A stretch of 64,000 bases of DNA, from NCBI GenBank assembly GCA_902573735.1, contig CACGLH010000002.1, positions 186,001 to 250,000 of the forward strand, read 5' to 3'. The stretch is from an uncultured Alphaproteobacteria bacterium (GTDB lineage Bacteria > Pseudomonadota > Alphaproteobacteria > Rhodobacterales > Rhodobacteraceae). A program made the translations under genes and the position numbers. Positions 58,971 through 64,000 of this stretch are shown here, one piece after another (the first letter of the stretch is position 1; every line of letters begins with the position of its first letter). The notes under the pieces are model-generated. The model was not told where the DNA came from, ran no database searches, and saw nothing but the letters and a program-made list of their open reading frames with translations.

Positions 58971-59273
58971 ATGTCAGATGAAAAACCAGCTTACATATTG
59001 GTAGATGTAAAAATTAAGAATGATGAAAATTATGATAAATATAAAAAATTAGCTAAACCTCTTGTTGAAAAATTTGGGGGAGAATATTTAACCAGAGGCG
59101 GACATATGGAAGTTATTTTAGATGAATTATGGTCTCCAACTAGACTGGTATTAGTTAAGTTTCCTAATTTAAAAAAAGCAAAGGAATGGCTTAATAGTTC
59201 AGAATATGCAGAAGTGGCAAAAATAAGGCTTGAAAATTCTGTAGGCACTTTCGTTTTATTAGAAGGTTTTTAA
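58971..59273 (+). CDS. DUF1330 domain protein
   Basis: PAYILVDVKIKNDENYDKYKKLAKPLVEKFGGEYLTRGG. Confidence 0.92.
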   Translation: MSDEKPAYILVDVKIKNDENYDKYKKLAKPLVEKFGGEYLTRGGHMEVILDELWSPTRLVLVKFPNLKKAKEWLNSSEYAEVAKIRLENSVGTFVLLEGF

Positions 59274-59677
59274 TATTTATTTTGATTTTCTTTATTAGCT
59301 AAAAATCCAATTATAGGACACTCAGGTCTTTGATCTCCATTACAACTTTTTGCTACTCTTGAAAGTTCATTTTTTAAGGAATGTAATTCGGACAATTTTT
59401 GTTCAATTTCATTTATTTTTTTTAAGGTTATTTTTTTTACTTCACTACTTGATCTGGTCCTATTTTCGTAAAGGCTCAAAAGTTCTCTACATTCTTCAAT
59501 TGAAAAATTAAATTTTCTGGCTTTTCCTACAAATAATAGCTTTTCAATATCTTGGGGTGTAAAAATTCTGTAATTAGAATTCTCATTAGTTTTAGGATTA
59601 ATTAAACCGATGTCAGAATAAAATCTGACAGTTTTTACAGATAAATTTGATTTTTTTGCGGCTTCACCAATATTCAT
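59270..59677 (-). CDS. MerR-family regulator, CueR-like (start set at ATG 59677)
   Basis: MNIGEAAKKSNLSVKTVRFYSDIGLI HTH; C-terminal CNGDQRPECPIIGFLA = C-x7-C as in CueR-type copper sensors. Confidence 0.9.
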   Translation of the reverse strand: MNIGEAAKKSNLSVKTVRFYSDIGLINPKTNENSNYRIFTPQDIEKLLFVGKARKFNFSIEECRELLSLYENRTRSSSEVKKITLKKINEIEQKLSELHSLKNELSRVAKSCNGDQRPECPIIGFLANKENQNKY

Positions 59678-59689
59678 TTTTAACTCCAC

Positions 59690-59720
59690 TTGACTCTCCA
59701 TTATATGGAGACCTTATGTC
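59690..59720 (+). promoter_or_regulatory. MerR-type promoter/operator for the DUF4396 gene
   Basis: TTGACT (59690-59695), 19-bp spacer containing CTCCA-TTATA-TGGAG dyad (59696-59710), TATGTC (59715-59720). Confidence 0.85.
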
Positions 59721-59741
59721 ATAGATATAGGAACAAAATTT

Positions 59742-60188
59742 ATGTCTACAACAGTTTTAAAATCTAGAATATCTTGGACTTGTAAACATACCTGGAAAAG
59801 AGCTTCTTATAATACATCTTGGTGTTTATTAGGTTGCGCTATTGGTGATCTGGGAACGATTGCTTTTTTTCAATATACGGGCATTCCATGGCCGCCATTA
59901 TTAATTTTCTCACTGGCGATCATAAATGGAATAATCACATCTATCATTTTAGAAACTATCATTCTATCACGTCAAATGCCTTTTTCTGATGCCTTAAAGA
60001 CGAGCTTAGGTATGTCCCTTATATCAATGATTAGTATGGAAATAAGTATGAACCTTGTAGATTATATTTTAGTAGGGGAAGCTAAACTGGTGTTTTGGGT
60101 TGTCCCTATAATGCTTCTAGCTGGATTTATAACTCCACTCCCTTATAATTATTGGAGGCTAAAGGCATTGGGAAAGTCTTGTCATTAA
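59742..60188 (+). CDS. DUF4396 domain membrane protein
   Basis: WTCKHTWKRASYNTSWCLLGCAIGDLGTIAFFQY; 4-TM small membrane protein. Confidence 0.8.
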   Translation: MSTTVLKSRISWTCKHTWKRASYNTSWCLLGCAIGDLGTIAFFQYTGIPWPPLLIFSLAIINGIITSIILETIILSRQMPFSDALKTSLGMSLISMISMEISMNLVDYILVGEAKLVFWVVPIMLLAGFITPLPYNYWRLKALGKSCH

Positions 60189-60194
60189 GTTAAT

Positions 60195-61340
60195 CTAACC
60201 AATAATTTTATTCCCTCTAAGCCAGCTTTGCTTTAAAATTGGCCTATTTTTATATAAACAGAATCTTAATAAATCAGCTCTTTTTCCAATTTCCAACACA
60301 CCTCTATCTTTCAATCCCATTGCTTTTGCAGGATTAGAAGTAACTGTAGCAATACCATAACACATATCTTCGGAAATGATTCCTAATTTTATAGCGCCTA
60401 ATAATAGGGAAGACGGCATATAATCTGAGGATAAAATAGATAAAGTTTTTTCTTCAACTAAATCAATAGCGGAAAGATTTCCAGAATGTGATTTTCCCCT
60501 TAAAAGATTCGGAGCTCCCATAATAACCTTTAAACCATTTTTATTAGAAGCTTTTGCAGCCTCTAATGTGGTTGGAAACTCTGCTAATTTAATTCCCATT
60601 TTTTTTGAACTCAAGACATCATTTAAGGTAGTATCATCATGACTAGCTAGAACAGTATTTAAGTATTTAGAACGCTCTAAAATTTTTTGTTTGTGTATCT
60701 TACCATTTTTCTCTTGTAGTTGATAGAGCAGATTGAAATGTTCATTAATTTCATTCTTAGACATTGAATATTTACCTTTCAAATATTCTGCCATTTTACT
60801 AATGTCTCTAAATTGTCTTTGTCCAGGAGTATGGTCCATCATACTTAAAATACCTATTCTATCTTCCTTTGAAAATTCATCTAATTCTTCAATTAATGTT
60901 TCAGAGCATATTTCAGCTCTTAAATGTATAAAGTGACATACTCTTAAAAAATCAAATTTTAGCATTTCAAGAAAAAGCTTTACTATTTTTTTTGCATATT
61001 TTGGGTAGCTTTTTTTTGTTTCAGAAATTATTGATCCGACCCTTAATGCGTCATAAACAGTAGTTATACCTACACTTGCAAGTTCTGAATCATGAGATAG
61101 AAGTGCAGCATCTAATGGCCAAGTGACACCAGGTCTTGGCTCCATGTGCCTCTCTAAATTGTCAGTATGTAATTCTATAAGCCCTGGACATACAAAGTCA
61201 CCATTACAATCAATAGATTTTTTTGAAGTTTGAGTTCCTTTATCTATAGCTGTTATTATGCCATTATTAAATTTTATGGAACCTTTAAATTGTTCTTTTT
61301 CAAAAACTAATTTGGCATTTGATAAAACATGTTCAGACAT
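60195..61340 (-). CDS. phnM: Phosphonate metabolism hydrolase PhnM
   Basis: DFVCPGLIELHTDNLERHMEPRPGVTWP signature; SSDYMPSSLLLGA. Confidence 0.97.
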   Translation of the reverse strand: MSEHVLSNAKLVFEKEQFKGSIKFNNGIITAIDKGTQTSKKSIDCNGDFVCPGLIELHTDNLERHMEPRPGVTWPLDAALLSHDSELASVGITTVYDALRVGSIISETKKSYPKYAKKIVKLFLEMLKFDFLRVCHFIHLRAEICSETLIEELDEFSKEDRIGILSMMDHTPGQRQFRDISKMAEYLKGKYSMSKNEINEHFNLLYQLQEKNGKIHKQKILERSKYLNTVLASHDDTTLNDVLSSKKMGIKLAEFPTTLEAAKASNKNGLKVIMGAPNLLRGKSHSGNLSAIDLVEEKTLSILSSDYMPSSLLLGAIKLGIISEDMCYGIATVTSNPAKAMGLKDRGVLEIGKRADLLRFCLYKNRPILKQSWLRGNKIIG

Positions 61341-61383
61341 TTATCATAATCCTATTAAAATTAAAATATCTTAGAAAAGAATT

Positions 61384-62049
61384 ATGAAATTTAAAAGGTA
61401 TGCAATTTACTATATTCCAGAAATGGATACTGAGTTTTATAAATCTGGAACTAAATGGTTGGGTTGGGATGTTTTTACGGGAAAGAAAATAGTAAATAAC
61501 AAAGATCATATTACTAAAAATGCTCGGCGTTATGGGTTTCATGGTACTTTGTACCCCCCATTTGAGTTGAAGTCTAAAATAAACTTTAATGATTTTGAAA
61601 AATCTGTTGATCAATTTGCTAAAAATAAAAAAGCATTTGATATGGGAAAAGGTAAAATTACAAATCTGGATCAATTTATTGCAATTTGTTTTAATGAGTC
61701 CGAAAAAAAATTGAAATTTTTTGCGGCAGATTGTATCAAGTTCTTTCACAAATATCGAAAATATCCTTCTCAAAATGAGCTTGAAAAAAGAAGGAAAATT
61801 GGTCTTACAAAAAGGCAAGAAAAAAATCTTGTAGAGTGGGGATATCCTTATGTAATGGAAGAATTTAAATTTCACATGACATTGACAGGACATTTGCAAG
61901 ATAATGAAAAAAAACTTATAGAGAGTAAATTGAAAAAAATATTTATATCCTCTTTTAATAATCCAATTAAATTCAACTCCATTTGTTTGTTGGGTGAAGA
62001 TGCCGATAATTTTTTCCATTTTATTAATCGCTTTTACTTATCAGATTAA
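61384..62049 (+). CDS. DUF1045 phosphonate-associated 2H-phosphoesterase-like protein
   Basis: RYAIYYIPEMDTEFYKSGTKWLGWD; RRYGFHGTLYPPFEL and FHMTLTGHL H-x-T/S motifs. Confidence 0.92.
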   Translation: MKFKRYAIYYIPEMDTEFYKSGTKWLGWDVFTGKKIVNNKDHITKNARRYGFHGTLYPPFELKSKINFNDFEKSVDQFAKNKKAFDMGKGKITNLDQFIAICFNESEKKLKFFAADCIKFFHKYRKYPSQNELEKRRKIGLTKRQEKNLVEWGYPYVMEEFKFHMTLTGHLQDNEKKLIESKLKKIFISSFNNPIKFNSICLLGEDADNFFHFINRFYLSD

Positions 62050-62578
62050 TCTTTTCAATAAATTCTTTCAAAACCAATGAGATTAGTTTGTTGTTATTTA
62101 TTACGATCGCATCTTTATTAATTTGAAAATTTTGTCTATTAAGTCTCAATTTTATTTGATCTAGGGACTCTCGTCCTCTTAATAGAAGCCTTTTTTCCAA
62201 AATTTTCTTATCTGCATGAATATGTATAATTTTTAATTCCGAAAATTTTCTTTTAATTAAAGGTATTGCTTCTCTAGAACCATTAAAAATTACAATATTT
62301 CCTTCATTCATTTTTTGATCTACAGAGATTGGAATTCCATAATGTATTTCATGGGCTTCCCAGAATAAAGAAAATTCACCTCTTTTTTTTTTATCTCTGA
62401 ATTCTTCTAAACTAACTGAAATAAAATCTTCATTTTCTTTCTCATTTTCTAATCTTGTAATAATCCTTTTTGGAAAATAAAAGGGAAGAATTTTTCTTGC
62501 ATTTTTTATTAAAGTATCTTTTCCAACACCTGACGGTCCTACAACAGTAATTATTTTTCCTTTAAGTTTCTTTTGCAT
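62024..62578 (-). CDS. phnN: Ribose 1,5-bisphosphate phosphokinase PhnN
   Basis: GKIITVVGPSGVGKDTLI; guanylate-kinase-like fold features; in phn cluster. Confidence 0.93.
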   Translation of the reverse strand: MQKKLKGKIITVVGPSGVGKDTLIKNARKILPFYFPKRIITRLENEKENEDFISVSLEEFRDKKKRGEFSLFWEAHEIHYGIPISVDQKMNEGNIVIFNGSREAIPLIKRKFSELKIIHIHADKKILEKRLLLRGRESLDQIKLRLNRQNFQINKDAIVINNNKLISLVLKEFIEKINLISKSD

Positions 62579-62579
62579 T

Positions 62580-63248
62580 TTATTTCATCAAGCTTACGTC
62601 AATCTCGCGATCACAGATTTCTTTTCTTATTTCTTGATCGTGGAAAATTCCTAATATTGCTGTATTCTTTTTCTTTGTTTTTTTTATAAGTGATAAAACA
62701 ACGTCTCTATTTTTATTATCTAGGCTTGCAGTTGGTTCGTCTAAAAGTAGTACTGGATAATCAAATATAAATCCTCTTGCTATATTTACTCTTTGTTGTT
62801 CCCCTCCTGAAAAAGTTGAAGGAGATAATTCCCAAAGATTTTGGCTTATATTTAATTCTTTCAACATTTTTTTAACTTTAATTATACCTTTTTTGTATCC
62901 TATTTTATTAAGTAACAGAGGCTCTAAGACAGTATCGATTGTCTTAACCCTTGGTATTACCCTTAAAAATTGAGAGACATAACCTATTTTAGATCTTCTA
63001 AGTTCAATAGTTTTTCTTGGGGTTTTAAATGATAATATTTCTCCATCTATAGAAATTTGACCAGAATTATATAGATAATTACCATAAATCATTCTAATTA
63101 AGGTTGATTTTCCCGATCCTGAGCTTCCAGTAAGTGCAACACATTCACCTTTTTTTATTTCTAGATTGCAGTTTTTTATTACATTTATTTTTGAACCTCC
63201 TTGATGGTGCAGACGAAATTCCTTTGATACATTTTTAATCACTATCAT
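62580..63248 (-). CDS. phnL: C-P lyase system ATPase PhnL
   Basis: EFRLHHQGGSKINVIKNCNLEIKKGECVALTGSSGSGKSTLIRMIYGNY. Confidence 0.96.
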   Translation of the reverse strand: MIVIKNVSKEFRLHHQGGSKINVIKNCNLEIKKGECVALTGSSGSGKSTLIRMIYGNYLYNSGQISIDGEILSFKTPRKTIELRRSKIGYVSQFLRVIPRVKTIDTVLEPLLLNKIGYKKGIIKVKKMLKELNISQNLWELSPSTFSGGEQQRVNIARGFIFDYPVLLLDEPTASLDNKNRDVVLSLIKKTKKKNTAILGIFHDQEIRKEICDREIDVSLMK

Positions 63249-63249
63249 T

Positions 63250-64000
63250 TTAAAACTGCAAAACTGACGAAACTAATAGTTGGGTGTATTCATGTTGAGG
63301 ATCATCAAGCACCTGATCTGTGAGACCTGTTTCAACAACTTCACCAGATTTCATGACAATTAAACGATCTGCAAGAAGCCTAACTACACCTAAATCATGA
63401 GTTACAATTATAACTGATAAATTTAACCCTATAACAATTTTTCTTAATAAATCCAATAGTTTAGCCTGAACCGAAACATCAAGACCTCCTGTTGGTTCAT
63501 CCATAAAAATTAATCTAGGTTCTGTAATTAAATTTCTAGCTATTTGTAATCTTTGCTGCATTCCACCAGAAAAAGTTGTTGGATTATCATCTATCCTCTC
63601 TGTGCTAATTTCAACCTTACTTAACCAATTTAGAGCTTTTGATCTCAAAGAAGAATAATTTCTTTGTCCCAATGCCATTAATCTTTCAGTAATATTCCCA
63701 CCAGCAGAAATGTCCATCCGGAGTCCATCTCTAGGATTTTGGTGAACAAAAGCCCAATCTGTTCTTGAAAGATATCTTCTTCTTACCTCAGTAATTTCCG
63801 TAAGCTCTTCTTTCACATCAGTTCTAGATTTAAATTTAATTGAACCCTTATCTACTTTTAATCTTCCAGCCAGACAAGATAACAGAGTGGATTTTCCAGA
63901 ACCACTTTCTCCAACAACTCCTATAACTTCACCTTCGTGTAAATCGAAACTTATATCATTACATCCTATTTGATGGCCGTAGGTTTTTGTTAAAGATTTG
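63250..64000 (-). CDS. phnK: C-P lyase system ATPase PhnK (5' end off window)
   Basis: Open to the window edge: KSLTKTYGHQIGCNDISFDLHEGEVIGVVGESGSGKSTLLSCLAGRL...; RRYLSRTDWAFVHQNPRDGLRMDISAGGNITERLMALGQRNY. Confidence 0.96.
   Translation of the reverse strand, partial: KSLTKTYGHQIGCNDISFDLHEGEVIGVVGESGSGKSTLLSCLAGRLKVDKGSIKFKSRTDVKEELTEITEVRRRYLSRTDWAFVHQNPRDGLRMDISAGGNITERLMALGQRNYSSLRSKALNWLSKVEISTERIDDNPTTFSGGMQQRLQIARNLITEPRLIFMDEPTGGLDVSVQAKLLDLLRKIVIGLNLSVIIVTHDLGVVRLLADRLIVMKSGEVVETGLTDQVLDDPQHEYTQLLVSSVLQF

Follow-up and report, generated by a model that had tools for sequence, protein, structure and literature searches.

A DUF4396 membrane protein under CueR-type control as a candidate Cu(I) exporter in CopA-less marine Alphaproteobacteria

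Near its right-hand end, the 64,000-nucleotide stretch of DNA analysed here (the window), which comes from an uncultured member of the Rhodobacteraceae, carries two divergently oriented genes, one for a regulator of the MerR family and the other for a small membrane protein of the family DUF4396. The features of this locus are, in order of position:

59270-59677, minus strand: cueR, encoding a Cu(I)-responsive MerR-family activator of 135 aa (TIGR02044 match; conserved Ser77, Cys112 and Cys120)
59690-59695, plus strand: -35 element TTGACT (from the sequence)
59696-59714, plus strand: 19-bp spacer between -35 and -10 (from the sequence; conserved in relatives)
59696-59710, plus strand: CueR dyad CTCCA-N5-TGGAG, centre 59703, 7 bp from the -35 element to the dyad centre
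59715-59720, plus strand: weak -10 element TATGTC (from the sequence)
59729-59734, plus strand: AGGAAC, which probably serves the DUF4396 gene as ribosome-binding site (by inspection)
59742-60188, plus strand, divergent from cueR: gene for a DUF4396 protein of 148 aa (PF14342, conservation, AlphaFold2 model)

In a profile search the product of the leftward gene scored above the curated cut-off of the TIGR02044 CueR model (155.4 bits against 147.4), and it aligns with Escherichia coli CueR at 39% identity and with zero gaps. Ser77, Cys112 and Cys120 of the E. coli protein are all identical in this ungapped alignment, and the monovalent-metal site that they form (Ser77 plus Cys112-x7-Cys120) is present in the window's regulator. 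A previous sequence-only reading had called the regulator CueR-like by virtue of a C-x7-C pattern; this pattern aligns with Cys112 and Cys120, and the assignment can be regarded as confirmed. The likelier start codon is the ATG at 59677 (MNIGEAAK, aligned with MNISDVAK of E. coli) rather than the listed start of the open reading frame at 59701, because the latter ATG falls within the operator. A gene for a DUF1330 protein (58971-59273) adjoins cueR and is also found in several other genomes of the genus.

Promoters activated by MerR-type regulators are expected to have a weak -10 element, such as the one found here. The same reading had described TTGACT and TATGTC separated by 19 bp, with CTCCA-N5-TGGAG in the spacer, and this arrangement is indeed found at 59690-59720 and recurs upstream of the relatives. 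Its geometry, both in the length of the spacer and in the position of the dyad, fits the published rule for CueR sites, which is a spacer of 19-20 bp and 7 bp from the -35 element to the dyad centre (PMC5045206).

A scan for relatives of the DUF4396 gene gave more than 540 matches, of which 80 loci were kept, and the addition of genus and family genomes brought the set to 88 loci, some of them near-duplicates (e.g., L008/L016 and L012/L017). These loci come from Rhodobacterales, SAR116, the Rhizobiaceae group, Sneathiella and gammaproteobacterial genomes. A divergent CueR match is adjacent to DUF4396 at 50 of the 88. The operator occurs upstream of DUF4396 at 41 of the 88, whereas Markov shuffles gave 0.015 on average, and hence the window's operator is not a product of chance; the search pattern is stricter than nature, since 16 of the 50 CueR-adjacent loci score none and some CueR loci are missed. 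Seven loci have an operator and no adjacent divergent CueR match, as expected for a regulon member controlled in trans, and at one of these (L046) CueR sits just downstream. A lack of MerR operators at the DUF4396 loci of relatives would have spoken against the earlier reading; instead, CueR and operator co-occur with DUF4396 in both Alpha- and Gammaproteobacteria.

The genes that surround DUF4396 tell a similar story. CueR lies within 3.5 kb at 46 of the 76 loci that have a called DUF4396 gene, and the neighbors at these 76 include cytochrome c (23), CopD (18), CopC (16) and multicopper oxidase (12). The identities of CopC, CopD, multicopper oxidase and CusB were confirmed with Pfam; cytochrome c' and CusCBA are further neighbors in relatives. 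Representative orders are CueR<>DUF4396-cytc-CopC-CopD (L021), CueR<>DUF4396-CopC-CopD-oxidase (L018) and, in the Gammaproteobacteria, CueR<>DUF4396-small ORF-CusCBA (L082), and a cupredoxin gene is located directly upstream of DUF4396 at SAR11 and some gammaproteobacterial loci without CueR. Two long-form members of the family are fused to such partners in one open reading frame, the first to a multicopper oxidase (DUF4396-oxidase, L156:226-2142) and the second to a cytochrome c (cytochrome c-DUF4396, L164:1489-2832). No plasmid match was obtained for the locus. At 27 of the 76 loci our queries found none of CueR, CopC, CopD, multicopper oxidase or CusB nearby, and this third or so of loci without recognized copper neighbors is what could be said for DUF4396 as a chance neighbor of CueR with no role in copper metabolism. 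We strongly disfavor that explanation and consider it scarcely credible, given the operator at 41 of 88 loci, the recurrence of copper neighbors in two bacterial classes and the protein fusions. The copper-homeostasis role that had been attributed to DUF4396 thus receives good support from comparative genomics, through CueR, its operator and the neighboring copper genes, and judging from these sequences the gene is almost certainly under CueR control and part of a copper regulon.

The extent of this regulon in the window's own genome was examined with operator patterns only. There are three perfect CueR operators, namely the window site and a divergent pair on another contig (C25; L116:5440-6502) flanked on one side by the gene for a 162-aa cytochrome c and on the other by a gene pair for cytochrome c' and a di-haem cytochrome. 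This 162-aa cytochrome is also the one encoded after DUF4396 in many relatives, and the divergent double operator suggests a part for c-type cytochromes in the copper detoxification of this genus. In two other genomes of the genus (G001 and G009) an operator pair of this type adjoins a multicopper oxidase, and a third (G005) has the order cytochrome c-CopC-CopD-oxidase. Two weaker operator-like sites of the window's genome (C3:70938 and C10:3058) were dropped, as they lie inside unrelated coding regions.

The 148-aa product of the controlled gene matches PF14342 over the entire model (positions 1-141 of 141; 128.5 bits in a profile search, cut-off 27); no other Pfam family was matched, and a P-type ATPase domain was not found in it. 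Four transmembrane helices are predicted (15-46, 52-76, 81-110 and 120-142), the AlphaFold2 model likewise consists of four helices (pLDDT 85.8, pTM 0.75), and the distribution of charge suggests that both ends are cytoplasmic. Among 74 diverse members C28, G31, C32, G35, S95, P134 and N136 are invariant, the first four making up the C-x2-G-C-x2-G motif of the family, which the window's protein has. M91, M96, M99, M103, E71, E100, D36, D107 and C147 are invariant too among the 61 short forms, and so is H148 in every short form whose sequence extends that far. A helical wheel calculated by hand places M96, M99, E100, M103 and D107 in one sector of 100 degrees. The long form of PF14342 (about 230-300 aa), whose aligned members are 15-22% identical to the window's protein, shares C-x2-G-C-x2-G, S95, P134 and N136 with it; however, it lacks the N-terminal CxHTW and the full methionine ladder, the C-terminal Cys-His is usually absent, and a His-rich loop may be present. 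CopD is also a copper-linked inner-membrane protein and is encoded in the same operons, yet it has no detectable profile similarity to DUF4396, and kinship between the two (PF05425) was ruled out by an hhalign probability of 0.15%.

A search of the PDB with the family profile gave zero matches, and Foldseek found no significant fold match there (best E 0.84). The weak and non-significant resemblance of the fold to NqrD/RnfA-type subunits (TM about 0.4-0.47, E about 2), together with the cytochrome c that is often the direct partner of DUF4396 and is even fused to it in one protein, could be accommodated if DUF4396 were a redox protein, whose invariant C-x3-C pair, as a thiol/disulfide or metal redox center, would pass electrons to and from its c-type cytochrome partner, e.g., so as to oxidize Cu(I). 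We regard this as improbable: the fold scores are not significant, most loci are without the partner cytochrome, and no cofactor-binding motif was recognized in DUF4396.

The sequence-only reading had remarked that the usual CopA was not alongside, and this proved to be an understatement. Neither PF00122 (P-type ATPase) nor TIGR01511 gave any match in 12 genomes of the genus, including that of the window and one that is 97% complete, whereas PF00122 was present in all 14 control genomes and TIGR01511 had a match in all 25 other genera sampled from the family. In a sample of 191 genomes from the class, the Cu-ATPase model was matched in a single one of the 13 that have the short DUF4396 versus 123 of the 178 that do not (Fisher p = 1.6e-5), that is, the model found no match in 12 of 13 carriers versus 55 of 178 non-carriers; genome size confounds this anticorrelation, since carriers are mostly marine bacteria with small genomes, and some genomes in the sample have neither CopA nor DUF4396. 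Eight carriers of 3.0-4.8 Mb have no ATPase match at all (G457, G464, G478, G481, G501, G505, G538 and G626). Among 50 genomes that carry relatives, TIGR01511 exceeded its cut-off in 12, of which no more than 3 scored in the range of CopA, and in the other 38 it did not; the lower-scoring matches are, in our reading, CcoI-like. It has been reported that 98% of Roseobacter genomes carry copA, whereas no SAR11 genome does (PMC4771312). The short DUF4396 is present in SAR11. That no P-type ATPase was detected in 12 genomes of the window's genus and the anticorrelation of CopA with the short DUF4396 in the class sample are new here.

These observations also bear on the possibility that DUF4396 does not transport copper but is a membrane Cu(I) binder that helps to load those proteins of the regulon that reside in the periplasm (multicopper oxidase, CopC or cytochrome c), while export is performed by something else. 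In favor of this, operons and fusions join DUF4396 to cuproproteins or cytochromes of the periplasm, and the protein is small and has no energy-coupling domain. Nonetheless, several genus genomes that bear DUF4396 show no multicopper oxidase (these genomes are incomplete), DUF4396 stands alone under CueR at some loci, and the anticorrelation with CopA favors a role in export; we therefore judge such a loading function rather unlikely.

The E. coli Cue system, in which CueR activates copA and cueO, has the same regulator family and promoter geometry as the window locus and includes a multicopper oxidase in its regulon, as do the relatives of this locus; but its membrane exporter CopA is absent here, where DUF4396, a c-type cytochrome and CopC/CopD are found instead. 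The Rhodobacter pathway of CueR/CopA and CutO (PMC8456105) likewise combines a multicopper oxidase with CueR-type control in related alphaproteobacteria. There, R. capsulatus requires the CopA pathway to mature its oxidase CutO, whereas in our set the oxidase occurs in genomes without a detected P-type ATPase; in such carriers the Cu(I) of the periplasm would therefore have to come from elsewhere, and DUF4396 is the obvious candidate for its source.

The account toward which we lean, if only slightly, is that of a CueR-activated DUF4396 Cu(I) exporter that stands in for CopA. A rise of Cu(I) in the cytoplasm would cause CueR, seated in the over-long spacer, to untwist the promoter and turn on the DUF4396 gene. 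Its product, presumably a four-helix inner-membrane protein with both termini in the cytoplasm, would take up Cu(I) through the Cys/His ligands of the cytoplasmic side (C14, H16, C28, C32, C147 and H148) and hand it to the periplasm along the invariant methionine ladder of helix 3 (M96, M99 and M103, beside E100 and D107). Once there, the Cu(I) would be bound or oxidized by the regulon's CopC/CopD, its multicopper oxidase and its c-type cytochromes, and DUF4396 would thus perform the work of the Cu-ATPase that is mostly missing from these lineages. CueR control as read from sequence, the copper gene context, the conserved residues and the absence of CopA support the account; for the protein itself, that it binds metal, how it lies in the membrane, in which direction it transports and what powers it are matters of inference, and neither a nucleotide-binding domain nor any other source of energy is visible in it. 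Binding of Cu(I) by DUF4396 is likely, while the case for Cu(I) export in replacement of CopA is evenly poised. As CueR is known to respond to Ag and Au as well (PMC10141476), and as direction cannot be read from a sequence, DUF4396 might alternatively import copper or be a permease for one of these other metals. This is very improbable, because CueR activates upon excess copper, so that induction of an importer would be counter-productive, and the remaining members of the regulon are detoxification genes.

In its broadest form the exporter proposal is more tentative and somewhat less than an even prospect: the short DUF4396 may be a new, ATPase-independent Cu(I) exporter that has displaced CopA within CueR regulons of Alphaproteobacteria that abound in the sea, SAR116 and streamlined Rhodobacterales among them. 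It may also serve SAR11, at whose DUF4396 loci no local CueR was seen. The proposal would offer an answer to how copper is handled in SAR11 and other CopA-less marine bacteria, which is a gap in the literature (PMC4771312 reports SAR11 without copA), and it predicts a CueR regulon with no ATP-driven pump, in whose stead there would be a small membrane protein together with cytochromes and an oxidase. An uncharacterized family present in many genomes would thereby gain a testable function. We found no functional description of DUF4396/PF14342 in the open-access literature, where the family is named only as the flank of a copper island (PMC7760498).

A second DUF4396 match in the window's genome (L002:1530-1623, contig C2 near 273997) was rejected as a gene, being a remnant of 94 bp. 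It matches the DUF4396 gene at its 3' end with 86-87% identity and is found upstream of a phosphatase-like gene in four genomes (G000, the window's own, G001, G006 and G009; loci L002, L013, L014 and L015), and at the same position G008 has a whole DUF4396 gene; the remnant is probably the scar of a relocation of the CueR-DUF4396 cassette. In the window, DUF4396 is abutted by a C-P lyase cluster (phnM, DUF1045, phnN, phnL and phnK; 60195-63816). This adjacency is not conserved, a phosphatase-like gene being next in G008 and G003, and therefore implies no functional link to DUF4396.
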